A DNA stretch of 64,000 nucleotides, taken from positions 20,581-84,580 of the IMG/VR virus record IMGVR_UViG_3300036820_000010; one strand, 5' to 3'. A model generated the notes under the pieces. It did no database searches. It worked only from the letters and a program-made list of their open reading frames with translations, and had not been told where the DNA came from. The DNA comes from a virus. How positions within the stretch are numbered: the first letter of the stretch is position 1; each line of letters starts with the position of its first letter. The translations under genes and the position numbers were made by a program. Below are positions 11,779 through 64,000 of this stretch, one piece after another.

Positions 11779-12117
11779 ATGCTAGCAGAACTCTTTCGTT
11801 GGGTTCTGCACTATACCGGGTCGGACAACGTGTCCGGACCTTGGTATGGATTCTTCTCGGGATTCGGGAGCGACCTAAGCGAAATCACTCTAGTTGGGGC
11901 AGTCGTCGCCTTCTACTGGAAACATACTTGCCACGTCGGAGGATGCTGGAGGCTAGGTCGCCTCAAGGTCGAAGGCTCAGAGTGGACTGTCTGCCACAAG
12001 CATCACCCAGAAGGTCCCCCCTCCCATCATGACATCCTGAGGCATTTTCACCAGAGGCAGGAAGAAAAGTACAAGGCCCAAGCTCACTCCAACCTAACAG
12101 GACGAGCCGAGAACTGA
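11779..12117 (+). CDS. Membrane-associated Cys/His protein
   Basis: 112 residues, last gene of the rightward late operon. An N-terminal amphipathic part and one hydrophobic segment (ISLVGAVVAFYW-like, residues ~35-50) precede a Cys/His-rich stretch (KHTCHVGGCWRLG, WTVCHKHHPEG, SHHDILRHFH) that could bind zinc. I recall similar proteins next to actinophage lysis genes, without known function. Alternatively a regulator of lysis timing. Confidence 0.6.
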   Translation: MLAELFRWVLHYTGSDNVSGPWYGFFSGFGSDLSEITLVGAVVAFYWKHTCHVGGCWRLGRLKVEGSEWTVCHKHHPEGPPSHHDILRHFHQRQEEKYKAQAHSNLTGRAEN

Positions 12118-12147
12118 AACGTACTCAACCTGCCAAGAACGGCCCCC

Positions 12148-12185
12148 GGCAGAGCAGGTGCTCCCTGCCGACCGGAACCTCCGGT
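12148..12185. terminator. Hairpin pair between convergent operons
   Basis: The 138-nt gap between the rightward late operon and the leftward operon holds two hairpins: GGCA/TGCC plus GAGC/GCTC at 12148-12169, and ACCGGA/TCCGGT with a 3-nt loop at 12171-12185. No long U-tract follows on either strand. Their place between convergent genes suggests a bidirectional transcription end. Confidence 0.45.
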
Positions 12186-12255
12186 TAAGGAGGCTGGACA
12201 TCCCTGACTAGGTGTTTCCAGTTTCGACTCGACTCGCCCTGTCAAGCAGGAGATC

Positions 12256-12513
12256 CTAAACTGCGATCCCGTGGATGTCGAGGAGAACCTCGTCCCAAGG
12301 CCGCATCAGGTCCCGGGCCATGATCTCGAGGTCGATCTCTAGGATCTCAAGAATCGCCTCTGCCTTCGAGGCCGGGATCTTCACGTTCCCTGCCTCCCAC
12401 GAAGCGACATCAGGCTGAGAAGTGCGCGCGAGTGCGAGGGCCAGGGTCTCCTGGGTCATTCCTGCCCTCTTACGAAGGACAGTCAGAGTAAGAATCTCGC
12501 GTCCACGTACCAT
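12256..12513 (-). CDS. XRE-family helix-turn-helix regulator
   Basis: 85 residues from the ATG at 12513. A helix-turn-helix is evident (VLRKRAGMTQETLALALAR, then SQPDVASWEAGNVKIP), typical of Cro/CI-type DNA binders. A TATAAT box lies 9 nt upstream of this ATG, so longer readings from a TTG at 12534 would start inside the promoter. It is the last gene of the leftward operon with its own promoter and may regulate the switch between early and late genes. Target sites unknown. Confidence 0.75.
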   Translation of the reverse strand: MVRGREILTLTVLRKRAGMTQETLALALARTSQPDVASWEAGNVKIPASKAEAILEILEIDLEIMARDLMRPWDEVLLDIHGIAV

Positions 12514-12522
12514 CTTACCATG

Positions 12523-12528
12523 ATTATA
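12523..12528 (-). promoter_or_regulatory. -10 box of the HTH gene
   Basis: TATAAT on the minus strand ending 9 nt before the ATG at 12513, leaving almost no untranslated leader. The -35 region is weak (TTAAGT, 18 nt upstream). Confidence 0.55.
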
Positions 12529-12537
12529 ACACAAATA

Positions 12538-12828
12538 TCAGGCAGCACTTAACCAGAGTTTCAGGAAGGCAGAAGTCGAATCGTGACCTAGACAACGTAG
12601 GCAAACGTTATCAGGCTCGGCTATGACCTCCTCGGCACCGAGGCAGGTCGCCCCAAAGGTCATGTTCCCGCATCGAAACATGCAGCAGTAGTGGGTCTCG
12701 TAGATATGCACTCCGCCTACCCGGTGGAAACGAAACCCCCGTCGAGTTGATCGGACCCACGGGCCTGCCTCGAAGAAGAGTTCGCTAGGACTAGTGGACG
12801 AGTCTTGGTTTCCTGTAAGCAGAGTCAT
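12538..12828 (-). CDS. Cys-rich small protein
   Basis: 96 residues from the ATG at 12828, overlapping the 3' end of the polymerase gene by 38 nt. An upstream start at 12915 would deepen the overlap and add low-complexity basic sequence, so it is disfavoured. Cys clusters (HYCCMFRCGNMTFG, GATCLGAEE, VCLRCLG) suggest a zinc-binding fold. Function unknown. Confidence 0.55.
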   Translation of the reverse strand: MTLLTGNQDSSTSPSELFFEAGPWVRSTRRGFRFHRVGGVHIYETHYCCMFRCGNMTFGATCLGAEEVIAEPDNVCLRCLGHDSTSAFLKLWLSAA

Positions 12829-28474: not shown

Positions 28475-28677
28475 CCGACTTCCCAGCCTAGAGCCTGCTC
28501 AGGGGATACTGCTGACTGCACTCGAACTCCGGGATACCTAGCATTACGAGACTTTTTGTACTTCCGACGAATCTCATCCCCAACCTCTTTGCCTGAAGTA
28601 GCAGTTCGAAAGGGACCGATCGGAGGAGACTCATGCCCCTCCTTATCCCAGATCATGGTCAAAACGTAGACGGTCAC
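28471..28677 (-). CDS. Small hypothetical protein
   Basis: 68 residues from a GTG at 28677 overlapping the VWA protein stop (GTGA). Begins MTVYVLTMIWDKEGHESPP and has a basic patch (RRKYKKSRNARYPG). No family recognised. Confidence 0.5.
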   Translation of the reverse strand: MTVYVLTMIWDKEGHESPPIGPFRTATSGKEVGDEIRRKYKKSRNARYPGVRVQSAVSPEQALGWEVG

Positions 28678-30020
28678 CTCCGAATCATCTCCTTCTGGAC
28701 GGGCCCGACCACTTGCCCGAAAGTCGGAGTACGACGCGCACCGTGAATCTCCTCGGTCGTCAACCACAGGGTCGGAATCTTCGGGTCAACTGCTTGAGAA
28801 ACACTCCACTCCATGTCAGTGACGATGATGAGCCACTCGTAGTTACCTTCCTTGGCTATCTCGGCGATCGAGGGAGACAGGTCAGTTCCACCACGCCCTT
28901 GCCACTCTAGGGGAATCTGCATCGGGAAGTCAAAACGACTGAAGGTACGATCAGCACCCACGATCGTCCGCGTATCCGCCTGGCGCATGCGCACCTTGCA
29001 GTCAGGAAAGATCTGAAGCGCCCTCTCGATGAAGGTAATAGCCACCTGGCAGTCAGAAGAGTCCATCGACCCTGACGTGTCCACCAAGACCATACCCTCG
29101 CCCAATTCTCTAGCCCGAAGAGACGGAAGTATCACGTCACTCCGGTAGACACTCCTCCGGTTAGGCCGAGAGTACGAGGTGCGGGTCGGCGCGTACCGAG
29201 TCATGAACTGCTTCAAGAGAGACTCAACATCGATCTTCGCCTCGGTCTCGACCCTCGAAACTTCCTTAACCCAACCCGGAAGGTTCCCGCAGTTCTTCGA
29301 GGTCATCACCCCAGTCGCGACCCGGTCTTCCCACTCCTCCTTGGCCTGGGCGACGTTCTTCTTCTTCTGCGCGTCAGATCGATTGTCCTCGCCTGACTGA
29401 GACGACTCTGAACCCGGAGTAGTACTTTGGGCCTGACTCGTCTGCCCCTGCCTGTCACCCTCTCCCTCGGCCTTGCCTGAGATCGAAGGGTGCGGCATGA
29501 CTTCTCCGACCGAGACAGGAGTACCCTGGCCCTGGCCTTGGCCTTGACCTTGACCTTCCTGGCCTTTCATCTCCTCGGCTATCTTCTGCAAGAGATCCTT
29601 CAACTGCTCGTAGTACCACTCGGCCGAACGACCTGCCTCGACATCCCGGAACCTACCTACCTCGGGTACACAACCCAACCGCATCACGATTCCGGTCGGG
29701 TCGCAGTACTCCTTGATGTAGTAGTTCAGGGCGAGGTCAGCGGCCAGGTTCCACTCCTGGGCCGGGATCTGCCCGAACCTGAAGTGATGACCTAGGAACA
29801 GGTGACCCGCCTCATGCAGGATGATCTCCTGGACATCTCGAATCGACATCTTGTCGATGAAATCCGAGTTGTAGTACAGGTGAACTCCATCGGTCGCAGC
29901 CGTCGTGATCACGAGACTCCTGATCTCGACAACTTGCAACGCTGAGATCATGGCCGCGAAGTACGGGTGATGGTCGTAGACGTGATCGAAGCCTCTACGG
30001 ATTTTATCTCGTGCCTTCAT
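28674..30020 (-). CDS. VWA-domain protein with zincin-like HEAGH motif (DUF2201-type)
   Basis: 448 residues. N-terminal putative metallopeptidase segment with HEAGHLFLGHH (zinc His69, Glu70, His73), as in DUF2201 proteins. Residues ~145-225 are Gly/Gln/Ser-rich with a GQ repeat. The C-terminal von Willebrand A domain has a full MIDAS: D314-T-S-G-S318, GGTD and VTDMEW. In bacteria such proteins work with MoxR AAA+ ATPases, and a MoxR gene lies 4.5 kb upstream in the same strand. A TATAAT box sits exactly 6 nt before its ATG, implying a leaderless mRNA. Confidence 0.87.
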   Translation of the reverse strand: MKARDKIRRGFDHVYDHHPYFAAMISALQVVEIRSLVITTAATDGVHLYYNSDFIDKMSIRDVQEIILHEAGHLFLGHHFRFGQIPAQEWNLAADLALNYYIKEYCDPTGIVMRLGCVPEVGRFRDVEAGRSAEWYYEQLKDLLQKIAEEMKGQEGQGQGQGQGQGTPVSVGEVMPHPSISGKAEGEGDRQGQTSQAQSTTPGSESSQSGEDNRSDAQKKKNVAQAKEEWEDRVATGVMTSKNCGNLPGWVKEVSRVETEAKIDVESLLKQFMTRYAPTRTSYSRPNRRSVYRSDVILPSLRARELGEGMVLVDTSGSMDSSDCQVAITFIERALQIFPDCKVRMRQADTRTIVGADRTFSRFDFPMQIPLEWQGRGGTDLSPSIAEIAKEGNYEWLIIVTDMEWSVSQAVDPKIPTLWLTTEEIHGARRTPTFGQVVGPVQKEMIRR

Positions 30021-30026
30021 GCTTTA

Positions 30027-30052
30027 ATTATAGTACATGCAGGAGGGGCCTG
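30027..30052 (-). promoter_or_regulatory. Promoter and inverted repeat before VWA gene
   Basis: Minus-strand TATAAT (30032-30027) lies 6 nt from the ATG. Just upstream, TGCAGG/CCTGCA with a 5-nt loop overlaps the -35 position; read rightward it is followed by TTTTT. It may be an operator for the VWA promoter or a terminator. Confidence 0.5.
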
Positions 30053-30128
30053 CACAGTTTTTCTAACTTAAATTGAGAAGAAGGAGACCCTCCTAGAGAA
30101 GGCCCCCCTCCTGAATTCTTAAGAAAAA

Positions 30129-30689
30129 CTACGGAGCAGTCGTCGTCCAAACTCCAGGCGTCGAGTCGAACCCCGAGTCGGCAGTCCAGTGAACGGTACT
30201 GACACTGACTCCGTTGGGCAGTTCGAAGGCGACTAGACCCTTCAAGGAAGTACCGGGCGTGAGGTTGAAGTCACCCCCATCGAAGTTGGTTCCCTCAGAC
30301 AGAGACCCGATATACTCCTGGTAGACCTGACCGTTGCTCCCGATTATCGTAGCGTCGTTGTTGGCATCGTCGTTGACGGTACCCGAGACCCCGGTCAGGG
30401 TGAACATAGCACCCACGAACCTATCTCCATTGTCAGGAACAGTGAACTCATCCGCTCCCTGGGCAGGATCGATGACCTGGGTGAGCTGCACGGTGTAGAC
30501 GTTCCCCTGGCTATCGGTCACCTGGAAGGTTCCACCGATTTGCTGGGGACCTGCGGGCGGAGTTGGAGTCGACTTGGCCTGAGACCCTGACTTAGGCGGG
30601 TTGACAGAAGCCGTCGGACTCACCGTCCCGCACCCGGCCACGAACAGGGCAGCGACAAAGGCTACCGCAATCACGATTATCTTGGTCAT
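30129..30689 (-). CDS. Secreted lipoprotein, DUF4352-like
   Basis: 186 residues from the ATG at 30689 (MTKIIVIAVAFVAALFVAGC). A lipobox (FVAGC) follows a clean signal helix, then a Thr/Pro/Ser linker and a beta-sandwich domain resembling DUF4352/immunoglobulin-like proteins. It would be anchored on the outer face of the host membrane during infection. Phage lipoproteins often block superinfecting phage; that role is inference. Located between the VWA gene and the coiled-coil gene. Confidence 0.75.
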   Translation of the reverse strand: MTKIIVIAVAFVAALFVAGCGTVSPTASVNPPKSGSQAKSTPTPPAGPQQIGGTFQVTDSQGNVYTVQLTQVIDPAQGADEFTVPDNGDRFVGAMFTLTGVSGTVNDDANNDATIIGSNGQVYQEYIGSLSEGTNFDGGDFNLTPGTSLKGLVAFELPNGVSVSTVHWTADSGFDSTPGVWTTTAP

Positions 30690-30750
30690 TCGCTTTCGAC
30701 CTCCTAGGGTCATTCCGAGGTTACCTGGGCCAGAACTGTTCAAGAGGGGA

Positions 30751-30773
30751 AGCGAGGCCCCTTAGGCCTCGCT
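30751..30773 (-). terminator. Hairpin at the end of the coiled-coil gene
   Basis: AGCGAGGCC/GGCCTCGCT, 9 bp with a 5-nt loop, overlapping the TAA of the preceding gene and followed on the minus strand by a pyrimidine-rich TTCCCCTCTTG. Probable intrinsic terminator. Confidence 0.6.
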
Positions 30774-31628
30774 CTTGTCCCACCCACTGATGTCGTCGAG
30801 GATAGATCCTGCCTTGGACTGGAGACGCTCCTTGCCTCCCTCCTCCGACCGAACCTCCTCGGCCGTCATCCCGCCGAGTTCCTTCGAGACCTTCTGGATC
30901 AGAGCGGTGATCTTGGGGTCGTTGGTCAGGTTCAGGGCGGGCGCCTGCTCCAGAAGAGCGTTCAGGGACTCAAGAGTCGTCTTGTGAACCCTCTCCCCCT
31001 TCGCGATCTTCGAGACAGCGTCGACCAGACGGTGGACGATGTCAGACGTCGCCTGCGCGATCTGCTTCTGGGTGTTGGCCACGACCCGGTCGCGAATCTC
31101 GTCCTGCACTTCCTGGGACACGTGACGTAGACGAAAGTCCTTGGACGGAAGAGGGGTCTCTTCGGTCTCGAAGGCAAAAGCGCTATCCATCTTCTCGACA
31201 CTCGGGAAGGGAACATCTTCAGCGACCGAGGGTCCGACCCTCTCAAGGTAGTTCTGGACCAGCTCGTCCCGCTGCGAGATGACCTTCTGCGCCTCGTCCA
31301 GATACTCCTGTTCGTACTTGCGCATCTCCGACATGAACTCTTGGTAAGAAGTAATCGGGAGGATCCGGAAGTCCTCGGACCAGGGGAGAGTCTTCTCCTT
31401 GAAGTAAGCCTTGGCCGCAGTGTAGACCCGGTTCAAGGGCCCGAGAACCGTCCACTGGATTACCTGGACGTACCCCTTGACCGAGGCCTTGTCCGCCTCC
31501 AACGACTCCGCCGCCGCCGAGGTGACCGTCTTGCTCGAGGTCAGGACTCCAAGTTGCGTGATCCTGAGGCGAACCAGGATCGCATCCCGAGACAGATCGA
31601 ACGAAGAAGGCGAGTTCTGCACGTACAT
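30762..31628 (-). CDS. Helical coiled-coil protein, possible MoxR-VWA partner
   Basis: 288 residues from ATG 31628, preceded by AGGAG. Mostly alpha-helical and charged with long heptad-like segments (YEQEYLDEAQKVISQRDELV; VQDEIRDRVVANTQKQIAQA). Soluble, no Cys. It stands between the VWA lipoprotein group and the MoxR gene and shares a near-identical promoter with MoxR. Third-component helical proteins accompany some MoxR-VWA pairs, so that role is suggested. No domain can be named with confidence. Confidence 0.6.
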   Translation of the reverse strand: MYVQNSPSSFDLSRDAILVRLRITQLGVLTSSKTVTSAAAESLEADKASVKGYVQVIQWTVLGPLNRVYTAAKAYFKEKTLPWSEDFRILPITSYQEFMSEMRKYEQEYLDEAQKVISQRDELVQNYLERVGPSVAEDVPFPSVEKMDSAFAFETEETPLPSKDFRLRHVSQEVQDEIRDRVVANTQKQIAQATSDIVHRLVDAVSKIAKGERVHKTTLESLNALLEQAPALNLTNDPKITALIQKVSKELGGMTAEEVRSEEGGKERLQSKAGSILDDISGWDKSEA

Positions 31629-31662
31629 GACTCCTTTTCTAGAATTCCGCTTAACATCTATT

Positions 31663-31691
31663 ATTATAAGGCACTCAGGAAGAAACTGCAA
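31663..31691 (-). promoter_or_regulatory. Promoter of the coiled-coil gene
   Basis: TTGCAG, 17-nt spacer, TATAAT on the minus strand. The stretch CTGAGTGCCT before the -10 and AATAGAT after it recur at the MoxR promoter (35731-35759), so the two genes are probably co-regulated. Confidence 0.65.
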
Positions 31692-31728
31692 GCAAAATCC
31701 TGACAAATTTAAGGAGAAAATAAAGAGA

Positions 31729-31749
31729 CCGGACCCCCTAGGGGCCCGG
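31729..31749 (-). terminator. Strong hairpin terminator after the secreted protein gene
   Basis: CCGGGCCCC pairs with GGGGTCCGG around a TAG loop; on the minus strand it is followed by TCTTTATTTTC. Ends transcription of the secreted Gly/Pro-rich gene. Confidence 0.7.
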
Positions 31750-31769
31750 CCTCCTTGTGATGGGGGGTC

Positions 31770-32231
31770 CTAGTTAGCCGGGTGTCCAGTATCCGGGAAA
31801 CCCGGAACCACAGGCGCTGTCTGCACCTGAGACCCGACAACTGCAGGAGTTCCCCCACCCGAGCCGGTTCCCGTCGTCTGCGTTGACGGGGGAGTCGGCG
31901 TCGAGGTCGGAGTTGGAGTAGAAGTTGGGACAGGCGTCGGAGTCGGAGTAGGCACAGGAGTTGGAGTAGCCGTCGGGGATGGGCAAGGGGTGGGCTTGAC
32001 GCAGTCGTGGTTGTTCCCACCCTGGTCATTTCCACCCTGCAGAATCACCCCATAAGTCTGACCCCCACAGTTCTTACCCCCGTTGCCTCCATTACCTCCC
32101 TGGCCACCGTTCCCCTGGTTGTTATTCCCACCGGAGAAGTTAGCACTCGCCGAGATAGAGAAGACAACTAAACCGACCAGGATTGCGGCCACCCCCAGGA
32201 TGACCTTGATTGACTTGAGACCTCTGATCAC
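31770..32231 (-). CDS. Secreted Gly/Asn- and Thr/Pro-repeat protein
   Basis: 153 residues from a GTG with AGGAGG upstream. A signal peptide or membrane anchor (IKVILGVAAILVGLVVFS, then ASA-N) leads into a GGN-repeat region (~33-60) with two Cys, a C-P-T-P region and ~45 residues of repeated T-P/S units, then a Gly/Thr linker and a C-terminus ending PGFPDTGHPAN. FPDTG resembles a sortase motif, but no hydrophobic tail follows. Likely exported to the cell wall of a Gram-positive host. Role unknown; possibly surface exclusion. Confidence 0.65.
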   Translation of the reverse strand: MIRGLKSIKVILGVAAILVGLVVFSISASANFSGGNNNQGNGGQGGNGGNGGKNCGGQTYGVILQGGNDQGGNNHDCVKPTPCPSPTATPTPVPTPTPTPVPTSTPTPTSTPTPPSTQTTGTGSGGGTPAVVGSQVQTAPVVPGFPDTGHPAN

Positions 32232-32294
32232 TGCAACCTCCTCAGGTTTTCTATTCCGTACTGCCCCAGGATGATATCGGATCCACCAACTTAG

Positions 32295-32971
32295 ATTTTA
32301 AGGAGGGCACCCAAGATTTTTAGGCCTTGGGCGCCCGGAAGGAAGGGAGTCAACCTTGGTTAGGACCTCGACACCGAGATCTTCGATCAGGCCCGTCTGC
32401 CTAGGCACTAAGTGAAAAACAGTCAACCCTTAACGCAGAGTGCACTTCCGACTGGGGGTGTATAGTTTCACTCCTAGACCTGCTGCAGCATTTCAGCAGA
32501 AAGGCCCGATCGAAGTAGACAGTAAGAAGCGGGGAGCGAGATTCCTGAAAGCCAGAAAGTTAAGGAAAGGCAGTGTTTCGGGGTGAGAGTCCCCCCTACT
32601 AAGGGCCTTTCCCCGTCCCAACTCTACTCAATCTCAGCCGGACGACAGTGACCCCTAACTTCATCACCTGCCCGGGACTCCCCTGAGGCAGCTCGAGCTT
32701 ACCTCTTGCTGTCTACCTACCGGATTGACTTGTCACCTATTTCGGTTGGATAGACAGGCCTACTCATCCTCCCCGGGACACTCAAGTTGTAAACTAAGTC
32801 AACCCTAGATACCTGAGTAAGGGGGGAGTTTCGACACTTTCAGACTATCTACCCAACCCATCCGCAATCGAACTCGCGGACAAGGTGGAGGAAGCGCGGG
32901 TCCTATGACCAAAGACCCAAGCATGGGAACCTACCTTGCCTCCCCCACCTTGTCCGCGTATTCAACTGACA
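32295..32971 (-). ncRNA. Candidate large structured noncoding RNA
   Basis: A ~675-nt gap without a credible gene, bounded on the minus strand by a consensus promoter (32978-33006) and a hairpin terminator (32305-32336). Readable helices: a 14-bp pair CGCGGACAAGGTGG/CCACCTTGTCCGCG (32875-32888 with 32945-32958), a 7-bp pair CTGTCTA/TAGACAG (32709-32715 with 32751-32757), an 8-bp pair GGAAAGGC/GCCTTTCC (32564-32571 with 32605-32612) closing a GGGG/CCCC hairpin, a CTGCTG/CAGCAG hairpin, and a 13-bp long-range helix with one wobble (32389-32401 with 32503-32515). Size and architecture recall large ornate phage RNAs such as ROOL or GOLLD; identity with either is not shown. Confidence 0.6.
32305..32336 (-). 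terminator. Terminator of the noncoding RNA
   Basis: GGGCGCCCAAG/CTTGGGTGCCC, 11 positions with one mismatch and a 10-nt loop, followed on the minus strand by CCTTAAAATC. Confidence 0.55.
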
Positions 32972-32977
32972 ACTATG

Positions 32978-33006
32978 ATTATAGCGCCACCAAGCCTCGA
33001 ATGCAA
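32978..33006 (-). promoter_or_regulatory. Promoter of the noncoding RNA
   Basis: TTGCAT (-35), 17-nt spacer, TATAAT (-10) on the minus strand. No coding start follows within 700 nt. Confidence 0.65.
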
Positions 33007-33015
33007 CCGAAATCC

Positions 33016-33282
33016 TCAACTCTTTTCGTGGGCGCCCAAGGCCTTAAGACTACCCTGAGGCAAAGACTCGATATCGATGATCGGACCTGCCTCACCCGCG
33101 GCAGAGATATCAGGCACTCCCTCAGCAATGACCAGAATCTCGTAGTCTAGCCTCATCCTCTGACCCACAGACACCCAAGCCTCACCCCCGCCTATCACCT
33201 TGACCAGAACTCGAGAGCCTTCGATCTTACGGATCTCGACTTCTGCGACCGCATGCAACTCCCCTGAGACCCCAGACCTCAT
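33016..33282 (-). CDS. Hypothetical protein
   Basis: 88 residues, ATG sharing one base with the preceding TGA. Beta-rich (VEIRKIEGSRVLVKVIGGGE). Last gene before the RNA promoter, which lies just beyond its stop. No family recognised. Confidence 0.5.
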   Translation of the reverse strand: MRSGVSGELHAVAEVEIRKIEGSRVLVKVIGGGEAWVSVGQRMRLDYEILVIAEGVPDISAAGEAGPIIDIESLPQGSLKALGAHEKS

Positions 33283-33563
33283 CAGGACCTCCCGCTGTCA
33301 AGACTTGGAATATCAGGATGTCTTGAGAAGAACTCCTCGGAAGAGATCCTCAACAAGTGGAAGGAGACTACATCCTCGAGAAGGGAATAGTACCTGAGCA
33401 TCCATTCTTCTTGCCCGACAGCGATACCTTCCTCAACACCCTCCCGGTACCTCATCTCCTGGACTGTCTCGGGCCTCCTGATGACCAACTCATAATAGAC
33501 CTCAGGGTCAACCTCAACTACCCTGCCTGAGGAAAGATGCACAAAGTCTTTGTCCAGGGTCAT
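33282..33563 (-). CDS. Hypothetical protein
   Basis: 93 residues from the ATG at 33563 (MTLDKDFVHLSSGRV) overlapping the preceding stop by ATGA; earlier starts would extend far into the upstream gene. Tyr/Glu-rich helical part (EVYYELVIRRPETVQEMRYR). No family recognised. Confidence 0.5.
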   Translation of the reverse strand: MTLDKDFVHLSSGRVVEVDPEVYYELVIRRPETVQEMRYREGVEEGIAVGQEEWMLRYYSLLEDVVSFHLLRISSEEFFSRHPDIPSLDSGRS

Positions 33564-34558
33564 CGCCTCAGTTTGAACACCTGATCCTTGACCAGTAGGG
33601 GCTTGTCCTCTGGACCCTTGACGAACGGATCGATCCAGATCTGACGATGATCCTGCAGTGATGGGTACCACTGCTGCCTCCAGAATCCGCCTGTCGCACC
33701 CCCGACGATCCAGCGATGATCCCAGTTGACCCCGATCGGGTCATGGTCAGAATGGGGTCTCTTGGGAACTGCTCGACGCAGAGTGACCACTTGGATTTCC
33801 TGGACCTTAGACTTAGTCTTCCTCTCGATGCCCCTTCTGATCTGACGAGGCAAATGAGCAGTCTCACGGACTGCCACCCTCTGCTGGCACATAGCGAAGA
33901 ATGCCACCAAGACCAAGTAGTCTGGCTTAACTGACTCTTTCTGCCCCTCTTCCCTCTCACTCTCCTTTAGGGTCTTCCCGAATTCGAAGGCAGTAAAATG
34001 CAGGAGAGACAAACGAGGAAGTTGACCCAACATATCCGAGTGCCTCTCTAGGACATCCCGAAAGATCCCCTGGTTGACCTCGTCCAACGGGTCTTGCATG
34101 TCCGACCAGAACCCGACCAAGACCCCAAAACGTCCGTCTACCTCAGGGTACTGAACTGACTTCCAAGACATAGCGCAGGTCCTGCAAGTCTTTCCATGGA
34201 CCTCTTTGAAGGTCAAGTACTCTGACAGGATCATCACCCCGTCAGGAGAAGGCAAGTCTGACTCTAAGAGACGCTGGTCGTCCATCGACTCTGCCGCCTT
34301 CAAGAGGAGGTTAGACATCTCGCGAGTAACCAGATAGACAGGAGCGTCCCGAAAGGGACCTAAGACTCCCCCTGCCCAGGACTCGAAGTTGAAGTTAGTA
34401 CCTATCTTCGTGTTGAGAGAATCCAAAAACCCCTGGAAGACCCTGTGACCCAAAGAAGTCTTAGACCAAGAATAGAGATTAGTAACCAACGAAATCCCGT
34501 CAGCGGCCGTCCCCCACAAGGGGGGAGGCCCACTAACCAGAGAAGGCTTCTGACTCAT
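33560..34558 (-). CDS. Conserved phage protein of unknown function
   Basis: 332 residues from ATG 34558, one base after the MoxR stop. One Cx2C pair (KTCRTCAMSW) and a distinctive C-terminus: DHRWIVGGATGGFWRQQWYP then HRQIWIDPFVKGPEDKPL. I associate this Trp-rich ending with a widespread actinophage protein family whose role is not known. Co-transcribed with MoxR. Confidence 0.6.
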   Translation of the reverse strand: MSQKPSLVSGPPPLWGTAADGISLVTNLYSWSKTSLGHRVFQGFLDSLNTKIGTNFNFESWAGGVLGPFRDAPVYLVTREMSNLLLKAAESMDDQRLLESDLPSPDGVMILSEYLTFKEVHGKTCRTCAMSWKSVQYPEVDGRFGVLVGFWSDMQDPLDEVNQGIFRDVLERHSDMLGQLPRLSLLHFTAFEFGKTLKESEREEGQKESVKPDYLVLVAFFAMCQQRVAVRETAHLPRQIRRGIERKTKSKVQEIQVVTLRRAVPKRPHSDHDPIGVNWDHRWIVGGATGGFWRQQWYPSLQDHRQIWIDPFVKGPEDKPLLVKDQVFKLRR

Positions 34559-34559
34559 G

Positions 34560-35672
34560 TCAGAACTGCTCAACCTTCTTCTGTCCAAAGTCGACCGACA
34601 CCCTAGATGCAGAAGGCCTGTTGTTCTTGGTCTTCCACAAGTGGTACTGAGGAGCAGTCAGAGTGCGCGGGATGTCTTCGACCAGACGGCGGACCAAGTA
34701 GGTCGAGGGCTCTTCTGGCCAGCGCATCCCGTAGACCAGAATTGCGTTAACTGCGTCCTCGTTACCCTTAGCGTAGTTGACCAGAGACAGAGTCAGAGAG
34801 TACAGGAGGGAAGGTTCCTTCGGGATCTTGACCGACTCAGGGGAGTCCAGGATCTCTTGAATCTGAGGGACCTCCTCGAACATCTTCTTGTACTGTAGAA
34901 ACTCGGTCGCCGCACCCTCACCGATGCAACCCGCCATCAGCGCCTTGGTGATGTCCTTGGTCTCGAACTTACCTTCTAAGGAGAGTTCCTCGGCTACCCC
35001 CAGGATCCTATCCGCGTACTCGAAGGACCGTGGAGTAGCGTAGGCCATGTCGGTAACGTCTGGCTTCTCCTTCGCTGCCCCGTTCGCCCAGACCTCCTGA
35101 CGAAAGGCAGCAAACCCCTGCAGTAAAGGAGAAACATCGCCCAACTTCTGGGCCCAAGCAAGAAAAGAGCGAAGAGCATCCTGGGACCCAATCTCGATGT
35201 AGAGGTGACACATGCGGTTGGCCGCCGCCTTCGACAGAGGAGTAGTCCCGATGTCAGAAGTCGAGTTCCCAGCCAAGATCACGAAGGCGTTCTTGGAGAG
35301 TTCGTGCCCATTCAACTTCCGGTCCAGGATCAACTGCAGGGCAGTATTCTGAACGTCGAGGCGAGCCCGGTCGAACTCATCGAGGAACACGATCGCCTTC
35401 TCGTCAGTATCGAAGGGGAGCGTCTGAGGCATGAGGTACGTGAGGACCTTGTGCCCATCCTCCGCATCCTGGGGATAGGGAATCCCGCCTAAGTCAGAAG
35501 GTTCCTTGTCCGAGAGTCGGTAGTCGTAGATCTTGTAGTCCAGACGCTCCGCGATCTGCCTGACTACCGAGGACTTCCCGATCCCAACCGGACCCCACAG
35601 GGCAACCGGGACCTGAGCGACGAAACAAGTCACCGTCGCACGCTCCGCCTGCTCCAAGGTGATGAACTGCAT
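34560..35672 (-). CDS. MoxR-family AAA+ ATPase
   Basis: 370 residues from ATG 35672, preceded by AGGAG. Walker A LWGPVGIGKSSVVRQ (~26-40), Walker B KAIVFLDEFDRA, sensor 1 FVILAGNSTSD and an arginine-rich AANRMCHLYIE. MoxR ATPases remodel or activate partners through VWA proteins; the VWA/HEAGH protein at 28674-30020 is the likely partner. First gene of the unit driven by the promoter at 35731-35759. Confidence 0.88.
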   Translation of the reverse strand: MQFITLEQAERATVTCFVAQVPVALWGPVGIGKSSVVRQIAERLDYKIYDYRLSDKEPSDLGGIPYPQDAEDGHKVLTYLMPQTLPFDTDEKAIVFLDEFDRARLDVQNTALQLILDRKLNGHELSKNAFVILAGNSTSDIGTTPLSKAAANRMCHLYIEIGSQDALRSFLAWAQKLGDVSPLLQGFAAFRQEVWANGAAKEKPDVTDMAYATPRSFEYADRILGVAEELSLEGKFETKDITKALMAGCIGEGAATEFLQYKKMFEEVPQIQEILDSPESVKIPKEPSLLYSLTLSLVNYAKGNEDAVNAILVYGMRWPEEPSTYLVRRLVEDIPRTLTAPQYHLWKTKNNRPSASRVSVDFGQKKVEQF

Positions 35673-35730
35673 ATTTGAACTCCTGCCCTGGACTCGAGCG
35701 GGCTTCTCGCCGGGTTCCTTGATATCTATT

Positions 35731-35759
35731 ATTATAGGCACTCAGACACAGGAACGCAA
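35731..35759 (-). promoter_or_regulatory. Promoter of the MoxR operon
   Basis: TTGCGT, 17-nt spacer, TATAAT on the minus strand, followed by AATAGATAT. It shares CTGAGTGCCTATAATAATAG with the coiled-coil gene promoter apart from one inserted T. The leader to the ATG is about 50 nt. Confidence 0.65.
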
Positions 35760-46676: not shown

Positions 46677-46682
46677 ATTATA
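46677..46682 (-). promoter_or_regulatory. -10 box of the leftward 42.8-46.7 kb operon
   Basis: Minus-strand TATAAT followed by CATAGGAG and the ATG at 46668, leaving essentially no leader. A TGTCAGGAT element lies 12 nt upstream. Confidence 0.5.
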
Positions 46683-46734
46683 GGTCATCCTGACAGGAAA
46701 TGCAAGGACCTTTAGGAGAATCTAGGCTTGGATC

Positions 46735-52123: not shown

Positions 52124-54838
52124 TCAGGCAGATCCTAAGAGTGTCGGACGCTTCTTCTGGGTGACCGTGAAGCAGCGTGACAAGGCCATGATAGCCGCAA
52201 CCACTCCGTCGATCTTATCTCCTGCCTTGAGCTTAGAAGGTTTGACGTTGCCCGCAGGATCGAGTTCGACAGCGAAGTTGTCGACCATCCAGCGCATGCA
52301 CCCGTTGGGCAGGTGCTTGTACATGAGTTTACCAGATTCTGCCAAGAGTAGAAGTCTCTGCAACTCCTTGGTCGGAGGAGACATGCTCGGAAATCCCTGG
52401 CGCACTTCGGTCATGTTGAAGGCCTCATCCTGCAACTCAGATGAGATCTGAGTAGCGTTCCAGGGGTCGAAAGCGATCTCTTGGATCTGGAAGTTCCTAG
52501 CATCCAACTCGAGTTGCTTCTTGATGTAAGTGTAGTCAGTGACGTTGCCAGGAGTCAACTGCAACCAGCCTTGTTGCACCCAGAAAGCGGCACTTCCTGC
52601 TGTTCGTCGGTTGAGTGCAGTTAAAGACTCACTTGGAGCGAAGACCCTAAAGATGCTGACGTGGGAAGAATCTTCCTGGGGAAAATCTAGGCAGTAGGCA
52701 CTGAGGTCTGTTGTCGAGGCAAGGTCCATCCCGCAGTAGCACTTCTGCCCCTTTAAGGATTCTTCTTGCATCTCGACCTCACCCATGTCCCAGTGGGAGA
52801 CACTCAAGTAACGAGTATCCTGGCGGGTCCTGATGTTGAGGTGCAAGCGCAAGAAAGACGCTAACTGGGCAGGGGATTGCTGGGCCTCACGTGCTGCCTG
52901 CTGCATGAAGCGACGGTTAGGTGAGATCCCGTAACCAGGATTGGCCTTCTTCCAGGTCTCCTCGGAAAAAGGATCGTCTGTCGGGAGTGCTGCCCAGATG
53001 ACTCCGTAAGTTCCCTGGTCCTTGATCGCCCCCCTCGCTAACTGCTCTATTCTTTCTCTCCGTTGAGCATAGATCGTCGTCGTACGCGAGTCATCGGCGG
53101 TCGTGATCGTCAGAGACAGAGGTTGTGCCCTCGAGCCCATACCAGTCTCGAGTGCTTCGACCAGAGCACCTGACTTGTGGACGTGGAGTTCGTCGATGAT
53201 CGTCCCATGCACGTTGGCCCCGTGCAGGACGTCAGCCAGAGAAGACACTGCAGCGAAGTAAGACCCGGTCGGCTTGTGGATAACCTTCTCGGTAGTGACC
53301 GAGACGTATGGCGAGAGATCAGGGGATTTCTTAGCGATTTGTTGAACAGGCTGGAAGCAGTACCTAGCCTGTTCCTTCCCGGTAGCCGCAGCGTAGACCT
53401 GAGCCCCTTCTTCTCCGTCTGCCGTGGTCAGATAGCAGGCGATGCCTCCCGCGAGAGTAGTGTTGTGGGTCGGGACTAGACCTTCTCCTGCTAGATAGCA
53501 GTGAGACGGGTGGGCGACTTGAATGCAGCACATCAGACGAGGTTCGACTTCTTCGATCGAAGTTACCTGGTTGGTCGAAGATCGAGTTGGCCTGACAGGC
53601 CTTGGTTCTAGGAGGCAGGCTTTTCTTCTCAACCTGAAAGGGGAAAAGTCTGACCAAGCAGTAAAGGAAACCAGATACACAGGCCCACAGTCTTTTCCGT
53701 TCAGGGTTGCCCTGTCTTCTCTAAAGGTAGGTTTGAACCCTAAAGACCTAGCCAAGAACAGTACTCCCTCGGCCAAATTCCTTCTGGTGTTCGAGAATTC
53801 ACAGCGGGACAGGTTAGGAGAACATCCTGCATATCCGTCAGTGTCCATCAGACCTCGCAGGAGTTCAAGACGTTGGGCCTTTGAACCCAAGAGGTACTGT
53901 CCTGGAATTGACTTGTTACTCAGGACTCCTATCTGTCTGAGTTTCTTTTGCAGGCCCAAGTAGGTTCTAGTTATACCTGAGTTAGAAACTGCTCCAAGAG
54001 AAAATCCTGCTTCTAGTAAAGAATCATGGATGTCTTCATCGGCATTGGTTACCCCTCCTCCCTCGGAAGTCCCATCCCCCAACCAAACTCCCAGGATGTA
54101 AGGGTCTAGAAGAAGGTCTTGGGCCTTACGTTCTAGGGGTCTTGGGACCTCTACACAGTATCTCCTCTCGACCCCAGACCAGGGATGCAGAAGATAATCC
54201 CTGGACATTTCTTCAGTAGTCCTGACTAACCACCGATTGCGGTAGCGATCATGGACCCACCACTGATGCTCTTCTCCAGCAATAACTTCTTGACCCGCAG
54301 AAAATCTTATCCGGTACGCCTTCTTGAACTCAGGCGTAGAGACGTAAGTTATTTGAGTCAAAGGCCCATCTGGGGAATGGACAGAATCTCCTACTCTCAA
54401 GGCCCCCATTGTCGACCATCCCTTAGAAGTCAACATGGGAGTATCTACAGAAAGTTCCTTCCCGTTTTTTCGGGGCACTTCAACGTGAACTTTGCGGATT
54501 ACCCGGCATACCGCCTTGGTGTCAGGATCGACCAGGACCCACCCGAAGACAGGAGCGATCACATAGGCGATCTCCCAGGGGTCAGGTTTCAGGACTCTAC
54601 CTGCCCAGATGCCTTGGGTATGGCGAAGTTTGGAGAAGACTGACAGGACTCGGTCAACTCGAGAGGCGTCGAAGAAGACTCCTCGACCCGAAGGTTCTGG
54701 GGTCTTGAACAGGGGAGGGCACTTAGGAAAAGGTATGTGCCTTGACTTGAGGTACCACTTGACTTCTTCCGACAGACGGGGATCCTGTAGGTTGAGTACT
54801 CTCGCTGTCTTGGGTTTGGCCTTGACTTGAGGGGCCAC
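52124..54838 (-). CDS. terL: Terminase large subunit interrupted by an intein
   Basis: 904-residue precursor. The exteins form an HK97-type terminase: Walker A is split, with VPRKNGK before and TTLAGG after the intein, Walker B GTIIDELHVHKSG, and RNase H-type nuclease acids in YCGMDLASTTDL, EIAFDPWNATQI and KIDGVVAA. Removing residues 128-459 leaves ~572 residues, a normal TerL size. It would cut and translocate phage DNA into the prohead. Start at 54838 (MAPQVKAKPK). The small terminase gene lies upstream, separated by one small head gene. Confidence 0.93.
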   Translation of the reverse strand: MAPQVKAKPKTARVLNLQDPRLSEEVKWYLKSRHIPFPKCPPLFKTPEPSGRGVFFDASRVDRVLSVFSKLRHTQGIWAGRVLKPDPWEIAYVIAPVFGWVLVDPDTKAVCRVIRKVHVEVPRKNGKELSVDTPMLTSKGWSTMGALRVGDSVHSPDGPLTQITYVSTPEFKKAYRIRFSAGQEVIAGEEHQWWVHDRYRNRWLVRTTEEMSRDYLLHPWSGVERRYCVEVPRPLERKAQDLLLDPYILGVWLGDGTSEGGGVTNADEDIHDSLLEAGFSLGAVSNSGITRTYLGLQKKLRQIGVLSNKSIPGQYLLGSKAQRLELLRGLMDTDGYAGCSPNLSRCEFSNTRRNLAEGVLFLARSLGFKPTFREDRATLNGKDCGPVYLVSFTAWSDFSPFRLRRKACLLEPRPVRPTRSSTNQVTSIEEVEPRLMCCIQVAHPSHCYLAGEGLVPTHNTTLAGGIACYLTTADGEEGAQVYAAATGKEQARYCFQPVQQIAKKSPDLSPYVSVTTEKVIHKPTGSYFAAVSSLADVLHGANVHGTIIDELHVHKSGALVEALETGMGSRAQPLSLTITTADDSRTTTIYAQRRERIEQLARGAIKDQGTYGVIWAALPTDDPFSEETWKKANPGYGISPNRRFMQQAAREAQQSPAQLASFLRLHLNIRTRQDTRYLSVSHWDMGEVEMQEESLKGQKCYCGMDLASTTDLSAYCLDFPQEDSSHVSIFRVFAPSESLTALNRRTAGSAAFWVQQGWLQLTPGNVTDYTYIKKQLELDARNFQIQEIAFDPWNATQISSELQDEAFNMTEVRQGFPSMSPPTKELQRLLLLAESGKLMYKHLPNGCMRWMVDNFAVELDPAGNVKPSKLKAGDKIDGVVAAIMALSRCFTVTQKKRPTLLGSA
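53462..54457 (-). other. Class 3-like LAGLIDADG intein inside TerL Walker A
   Basis: Residues 128-459 of the precursor. N-terminal splice region ELSVDTPMLTSKGW begins with Glu instead of Cys/Ser; block B HQWWVHD has Trp193; block F RLMCCIQVAHPSHCYLAGEG has Cys438; block G GLVPTHN has Thr457, followed by Asn459 and +1 Thr460. The Trp/Cys/Thr set with a non-nucleophilic residue 1 is the signature of class 3 inteins. Two LAGLIDADG motifs, LLLDPYILGVWLGDGT and ELLRGLMDTDGYA, show a homing endonuclease. Confidence 0.85.
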
Positions 54839-57032: not shown

Positions 57033-57310
57033 ACCTTATGACTGTTAAGCACATGGAATGCTTAACAGTCATAAGGTCATAGGACTTAACAGTCATAAGG
57101 CCTCATCCTGTTCAGGTATAAGAAGGCAAGGTGAGGAGGGTTAACTCAAGGCGCCTGCCTGCCTTGTCCTCGCGCTCGCCTCATCCTTATGACCTCAGGC
57201 GCCTCGTCCTTATCCTGCCTGCCTCGTCTTTGTTAAACACATGACTTCATTTAAGTTATACCTAGGCACTCCTCATCCTTATCCCAACGATGACTACGAA
57301 CCTTATCCCA
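57033..57310. repeat. Iteron-like repeats, candidate replication or regulatory site
   Basis: An 18-bp perfect inverted repeat (57033-57050 with 57060-57077; core CTTAACAGTCATAAGG) is followed by a third direct copy (57085-57100). Downstream are related short motifs: CTCATCCTTATGACC (57180), CTCGTCCTTATCC (57203), CTCATCCTTATCC (57272) and AACCTTATCC (57299), separated by GCCTGCCT-rich spacers. No gene lies between 56767 and 57426. Confidence 0.5.
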
Positions 57311-57419: not shown

Positions 57420-57426
57420 TATAGAT

Positions 57427-62585: not shown

Positions 62586-64000
62586 CCCCGAATTTTCGTT
62601 CGTGCACGCGTGCGTGCGCACGTGTCGCTTGTCAACCGCGTTTTCGCGTTTCGTGTTTCGCGTTTCGTTTACAACATATCGCGATAGTGTCGGGAACCCC
62701 TAGGGGACCTCGACACCCATCTCTGCCCACGCAGACCCTGGGCGTCTCGCGTCACAGCCGGTCGCTGCGACACGAGAAGGCACGCCCCGATAGATTCGTC
62801 GGCCGAGAGATTCTCGCGTCGGAGATCGCGTCTCTCCGCGTCGAGGTGACCTGGTGAATTTCCAAGTTTCTTGGAATTCCCAAGGCCCTTGGATTTTCCA
62901 ACATTCTTGGAAATTCCAAGGGCCTTGGATTTTCCCCAGGGCGAACGCCCGTTCGGGTTTAAACCGAAAATCCGAACCGGGCTTACCAGGGGCTGCTCTC
63001 GGGGGCTTACCGTACCGGTTTTATATTATAATTATAATGTAATAGAAATTTTCAAAAACTGCAAAAATTTTTTTTTCAGGTTTTGGGTTTTTGCCTTGAC
63101 TCCCCTTGGATTTTGTCCAGGCAAAGCAAGACCTTGGTCTCTACTCCACCTTGCCTAGAAACGCAACATCTTGAGATTCGACCGAAGTAGTTTGACTTCT
63201 CCTCCGAGGTAAGACTCAACCCCCGCACTCATCCTGGGTCTCAAGACAGAGTCAGGGAACAAATTCAGTCAGTCTAGACTCCACCTGGATTTATTACGCG
63301 CACGCGCGCTTGAAACCAATCCCGACGTGATCTCCCGACGTGTCAAGGTTCCTGAGTTTTCCCAAAGGCAGGAGTCTGAGAACCTGAGTAAACCCCAAAT
63401 CTAGTCTCTACTCCAATGACTGACCCCGCAACCAGAGTTGCATCCCCTAGGGGAACTCAAGGCCTAGAAACTCAAAATCAAACGGGGAGAAAAGCCCCCC
63501 GGTATTTTTCAAGGGAGCGGGGCTACCCCGGGGGCCTAGGCAAACGGGGAGAAAACAGAGTGAGTGTGTTCTGAGTGTCGAGAAAACCCCCTGGGTCCTG
63601 TGATTATTGAAGTTCCCTCTCTGCCCAGGACTCTACCTTGAATCAAAACAGACCAGGGAAAAGACCGGACTTGTCGGGAGGGCATGGTGCGGGGTGTCGG
63701 GTAGGTGGGGAGTGGTAAGTCTTGTCGGTCAGTCCTGGCATGGACAGTCGGCTTGGTGAGGTGCGGCAAGGTTAGTCGGAAAGGATAGGTACGGCCAGGT
63801 TCGGTAAGTCGTTACGGTCTGGATAGTCTAGAAGGCAGGGTTCGGGTTGTCGGAGTGGGACGGCATGGTGTGTGCCGGATTGTCGGGACGGCATGGGCTG
63901 GAAGGGATTGTCGGTGAGGTATGGGCTGTCGGGGAGGGATGGATTGTCGGGGGGGGGGGGGGGGGGTACGGTGTGGTCCGGGTTTTAGGTAAGGTGTGGT
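62586..64000. other. Noncoding end region with palindromes, AT-rich tract and G-rich array
   Basis: About 1.4 kb without a credible gene. 62859-62935 has four short palindromes (CCAAG/CTTGG or CCAAGGCCCTTGG-type) in tandem. 63020-63095 is very AT-rich with TATATTATAATTATAATG and long A/T runs. 63480-63560 has two copies of AAACGGGGAGAAAA. 63660-64000 is G-rich with degenerate TTGTCGGG-GGCATGG repeats and an 18-G run at 63949-63966. The rest (63100-63470) looks like decayed or spacer sequence. Confidence 0.6.
62859..62935. repeat. Tandem palindromes
   Basis: CCAAGTTTCTTGG, CCAAGGCCCTTGG, CCAACATTCTTGG and CCAAGGGCCTTGG spaced 17-22 bp apart, linked by AATTCC- and ATTTTCC-like spacers. Spurious frames cross it. 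Confidence 0.55.

Follow-up and report, generated by a model that had tools for sequence, protein, structure and literature searches.

Phages encode large ornate RNAs that rank among the biggest structured RNAs for which no function is known; few classes of them have been described. RNA-only cages are formed by 14 copies of GOLLD and by 8 copies of ROOL, of which the env-120 RNA is 659 nt long (PMC12286853); GOLLD is known from actinobacteria too (PMC6582537). In ICP1, a phage without tRNAs, RNA-seq revealed that the most abundant phage transcript is an ORF-less RNA of ~800 nt, and the phage satellite PLE produces an abundant noncoding RNA between inverted repeats, the inter-inverted-repeat (IIR) transcript (PMC7567579).

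The window analyzed here is a 64-kb stretch (20581-84580 in a virus record of 84,580 bases) of a tailed phage, marked by genes for a tail tape measure protein, a family A DNA polymerase, and a terminase. Its minus strand contains a predicted large structured noncoding RNA, and we consider it likely that the structured noncoding region and the promoter preceding it are both real. As judged from the sequence, the best explanation, with a somewhat better than even chance of being correct, is a stand-alone phage noncoding RNA of ~670 nt, an orphan comparable to the ICP1 transcript; by analogy, it would function as do the ROOL, GOLLD, or ICP1 RNAs. The features of the locus, in window coordinates, are as follows.

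33016-33282, minus strand: upstream gene of 88 aa, no family match (coding score +0.25)
33030-33045 (about), minus strand: A1, an exact inverted copy (15 nt) of A2, located 5' of the promoter within the final codons of the 88-aa ORF
32978-33006, minus strand: promoter of the recurring phage family, with TTGCAT (33006-33001), 17 bp, TATAAT (32983-32978), then CATAG
32305-32972, minus strand: predicted large structured noncoding RNA of about 668 nt, called from its folding z and the absence of an ORF
32865-32968, minus strand: 5' hairpin (5' rod), a stem of 9 bp + 21 bp with a forked tip (pair probabilities 0.99-1.00)
32744-32858, minus strand: domain I, a 14-bp helix (32858-32845/32757-32744; p 0.96) with further helices as cap
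32348-32730, minus strand: domain II, a three-armed junction with an 8-bp long-range closing helix (32730-32723/32355-32348; p 0.95)
32515-32716, minus strand: domain II arm a, with an 8-bp base helix (32716-32709/32522-32515; p 0.98) and the AGCTCGAGCT palindrome
32382-32514, minus strand: domain II arm b, with a 13-bp helix (32514-32502/32394-32382; p 0.96) and the TGCTGCAGCA palindrome
32364-32381, minus strand: short hairpin of domain II
32305-32336, minus strand: 3' hairpin with arms A2 (32336-32325) and A3 (32316-32305), a possible terminator or processing site (-23.1 kcal/mol)
31770-32231, minus strand: downstream gene of 153 aa, predicted secreted, Asn/Gly-rich then Pro/Thr-rich (coding score +0.21)
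31722-31756, minus strand: strong terminator closing the transcription unit begun at the RNA promoter (16-bp stem, tail ATTTTCTC, -29.1 kcal/mol)

The closest case in kind is the ICP1 ~800-nt RNA, which lies between gp139 and gp140. Both RNAs occupy a long ORF-less stretch (~1 kb in ICP1) of a phage without tRNAs, ICP1 being lytic, are similar in size, and have no Rfam match (the ICP1 RNA was run in this analysis). They differ in that the ICP1 transcript is proven to be abundant, whereas the present RNA is predicted from sequence, and in that the folding excess of the ICP1 RNA is weaker (z -1.9 on the minus and -3.5 on the plus strand by the same measure). ROOL (RF03087) resembles the present RNA in being phage-borne, in its length, and in its elaborate multi-domain fold (predicted here), and GOLLD (RF02032) in being a large ornate RNA borne by a phage or prophage. 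By contrast, no tRNA gene was found in the window or the rest of the contig, that is to say, the RNA has neither the tRNA island of ROOL nor the tRNA genes that GOLLD often carries or lies near, a proximity that is frequent but not obligatory in both. The PLE IIR transcript is likened to our locus by arrangement, not sequence, and the upstream repeat A1 falls outside the transcript predicted here.

The initial annotation had proposed that the RNA might belong to GOLLD or ROOL, or else form a new class. Membership was not borne out by the Infernal search of Rfam that it had suggested: on the region and the contig, neither the ROOL model (gathering 99.1 bits) nor the GOLLD model (gathering 150 bits, conserved 3' domain) gave a match at the gathering score or at E<=10; for these negatives, the calibration supplied by Rfam is the basis. 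A new RNA class is possible but would call for homologues, of which the searches below gave none. A further, unrelated example in a tRNA-less phage, if true, would suggest that such RNAs arose repeatedly in phages, with no essential link to tRNAs, which would narrow the possible roles of large phage RNAs.

No model of Rfam 15 matched the window or the remaining contig at the gathering score, and at E<=10 the RNA region matched unrelated hairpin families only; OLE, the group I and group II intron models, and the leader and riboswitch models all lacked a match. Matches of miRNA families at the 5' hairpin were rejected as chance, reflecting only a long hairpin. Sequence searches with the RNA gave (i) no homologue in INPHARED (blastn); (ii) one 33-nt chance match and no homologue in PLSDB (blastn); (iii) short chance matches only in 50 of the IMG/VR records from the searches for relatives below (best E 3e-4 over 22 nt); (iv) 2 and 9 hits when IMG/VR was scanned twice for exact 16-mers, with no hit continuing along the RNA; (v) matches of only ~22-50 nt, not taken as homologues, in 396 genomes from the phylum to which a Sphaerisporangium genome (mentioned below) belongs; and (vi) antisense matches to other loci of the phage of at most 15 exact nt (E 0.04). 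Relatives of the phage itself were sought in IMG/VR through the single proteins MoxR, DUF3150, TerL, and PolA, which led to just 2 records, namely L006, a 4.4-kb fragment with a 99% TerL match, and L007, which shares little beyond TerL with the phage. Alignment searches of IMG/VR returned 80 loci for MoxR (~30% identity) and 80 for TerL, and PolA was common to none of the 40 records tested. Within the reach of these scans, the 4.4-kb fragment with the same terminase is the only close relative in IMG/VR. None of these routes gave a homologue of the RNA, and a single sequence carries no covariation.

The region 32290-32975 is gene-free, as had been noted initially. Its longest open frame across the six frames has 52 codons, the lowest value among the 686-nt windows of the 64 kb (median 166 codons), and the in-frame codon score is below zero in each of the six, compared with +0.21 to +0.25 for the flanking genes. 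The minus strand is predicted to fold with excess stability: the minimum free energy of 32972-32296 is -303 kcal/mol, compared with -248 kcal/mol in shuffled sequences (z -6.8; -6.3 to -8.1 across runs). Of 186 equally long windows taken from the two strands, this region ranked first (z -8.1, runner-up -5.8), with z values that are rough given the few shuffles per window. Its positional entropy (0.46) lies below that of all 24 shuffles (mean 1.13). Without its two terminal hairpins (5' rod and 3' hairpin), the internal 519 nt still gave a z of -4.9 on the minus strand, compared with -1.4 on the plus strand. Therefore, the excess stability is not confined to these hairpins, nor does it follow from the DNA alone.

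All elements named by the initial annotation are present, and all are on the minus strand; helices of 14, 13, and 8 bp recur in the predicted fold. The majority of the RNA helices have pair probabilities above 0.9, and those of the domain II arms are mostly above 0.8. The 86-nt core of the 5' hairpin has a z of -7.6, and its 21-bp stem includes 14 perfect base pairs (32958-32945/32888-32875; p 1.0). For domain I, a 119-nt segment has a z of -3.3 and an entropy of 0.23, compared with 0.95. No defined structure is predicted for the tip of arm b (32454-32420). Three 10-nt palindromes, AGCUCGAGCU, UGCUGCAGCA, and UGCCUAGGCA, occur in the RNA, and they might conceivably mediate copy-to-copy contacts; three palindromes of at least 10 nt are a mild enrichment, and ~6% of genome windows hold as many.

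The RNA promoter reads TTGCAT-17-TATAATCATAG and agrees with the consensus promoter proposed initially. Its elements recur in the window: TATAATCATRG was found at 11 sites with at most one mismatch (0.35 expected), and TTGCAN-17-TATAAT at 15 sites with at most 2 mismatches (3.3 expected). This recurrence is the strongest evidence for a transcript start, which is predicted at about 32971-32973. Copies of TTGCA-17-TATAATNATRG lie, for example, at ~12528, 31668-31691, 35736-35759, 46682-46705, 57423, and 62562, all on the minus strand, and a separate promoter group, TTGACA-17-TATANT, occupies 56.7-62.6 kb.

The 3' end is less clear. The terminator proposed initially exists as a strong hairpin (12 bp including one G-U pair), but it has no U tract; its tail is UCCUUAAAAU, and it is absent from the terminator scan list. 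Intrinsic termination there is therefore doubtful, and so is the part of the initial reading that gave the RNA an independent terminator, whereas the structure and the promoter hold. The nearest clear terminator 3' of the RNA is that at 31756-31722, beyond the 153-aa gene. These two observations make a long structured 5' leader the chief rival: a single mRNA would run from the 33006 promoter to the 31722 terminator, and the 670 nt would act in cis on the 153-aa gene as an attenuator, a stability element, or a riboswitch-like element. In agreement with a leader, visual inspection of 32303-32231 revealed no other clear promoter for the 153-aa gene (GTG start with GGAGG), and the neighboring DUF3150 gene has its own promoter directly after the 31722 terminator. 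However, a leader of 740 nt would be very long for a compact phage, the other copies of the promoter family lie mostly just 5' of ORFs, several only a few bases from start codons, and no Rfam leader or riboswitch model matched. We regard the leader as unlikely, though a serious contender, and favor the stand-alone RNA over it.

For the stand-alone RNA, we envisage the following course. RNA polymerase would start at ~32971 from the TTGCA-17-TATAATNATRG promoter, and co-transcriptional folding would yield the 5' rod, the small domain I, and the three-armed domain II sealed by its long-range helix. The RNA would end at the A2:A3 hairpin, through termination or processing, and most probably serve as a stable structural RNA present in quantity during infection, as are ROOL, GOLLD, and the ~800-nt RNA of ICP1, possibly self-associating via palindromic loops. 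The repeat A1 adds a further element. Its sequence, AGGCCTTGGGCGCCC, lies at 32322-32336 and is inverted at about 33030-33044, so that the 2 copies (15 bp exact, 17/18 overall, 693 bp apart) bracket the region. Such 15-bp pairs are expected by chance ~0.1 times in 64 kb, although several inverted pairs of at least 15 bp occur in the window and are thus somewhat commoner here than chance predicts. When the transcript was extended to 33060, A1:A2 accounted for 14.9 expected pairs, with 0.02 left for the 3' hairpin, in a prediction of the equilibrium fold only. Read-through RNA from the MoxR operon would carry A1, which may capture A2, such that the 3' hairpin would form only on RNAs from the dedicated promoter. 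A bolder version, which we hold to be improbable, is a new self-assembling ROOL/GOLLD-like class whose 3' end is set by its start: in read-through RNA, A1 would capture A2 and abolish the 3' hairpin, so that transcription includes the 153-aa gene, while RNA from the dedicated promoter, which lacks A1, would form A2:A3 and stay discrete.

It is more improbable still that the region contains no RNA gene and is a GC-rich intergenic spacer, a decayed gene, or a DNA site for replication or packaging, the fold being a by-product. The absence of a homologue and of a known transcript would suit this reading, but the first-ranked and strand-specific structure, the dedicated promoter, and the gene-dense surroundings argue against it. 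Marginally less probable again is a domesticated mobile or invertible DNA element with A1 and A2 as terminal repeats or recombination sites. The rare exact repeat that brackets the region and the precedent of the PLE satellite IIR transcript (PMC7567579) point to such an element; against it, (i) no second copy of the RNA, the element, or the A1/A2 repeat was found elsewhere in the phage genome, nor any outside the phage in the searches above; (ii) target duplication was not seen by eye; (iii) A1 overlaps coding sequence, namely the end of the 88-aa gene; (iv) the repeat arms amount to two short palindromes; and (v) the strand-specific RNA folding is left unexplained. A known type of structured RNA too diverged to recognize, be it a catalytic intron (group I or group II), tmRNA, or RNase P RNA, is very improbable: the size of an ORF-less group II intron would fit the region, but no Rfam model beyond unrelated hairpin families matched at E<=10, no gene is split around the region, and the region has its own promoter.

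The RNA lies among genes for a MoxR ATPase, DUF3150, and DUF2201 (VWA-like) proteins on the minus strand (window 28674-35741). In most phages seen, the MoxR and DUF2201 genes are adjacent; here they are separated by the RNA and the gene for the Pro/Thr-rich secreted protein of 153 aa. For the 342-aa neighbor (33560-34588), the few recognizable relatives are in a Streptomyces phage, a Bifidobacterium phage, and the Sphaerisporangium genome, which weakly hints at Actinobacteria as the host.

The terminase large subunit gene (52124-54838, minus strand) contains an apparent in-frame intein at about residues 127-459, with a LAGLIDADG_3 match at 322-377; the TerL relative in L007 (53% identical) has no intein-like insert. 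At 62840-63080, tandem nested CCAAG/CTTGG palindromes with a 36-bp unit lie beside the A/T-rich TATATTATAATTATAATG, a possible replication origin, near which both strands show a folding excess. At 57033-57100, a 19-bp hairpin, ACCTTATGACTGTTAAGCA, and one more copy of the hairpin core (the third) lie in an ORF-poor stretch into which the TATAATCATAG promoter at 57423 (minus strand) reads; the site could be an operator, an origin, or another noncoding RNA. The fold that ranks second in the window for excess stability (11986-12662, minus strand; z -5.8) surrounds an HTH gene, which has a promoter of its own and lies between convergent gene blocks.
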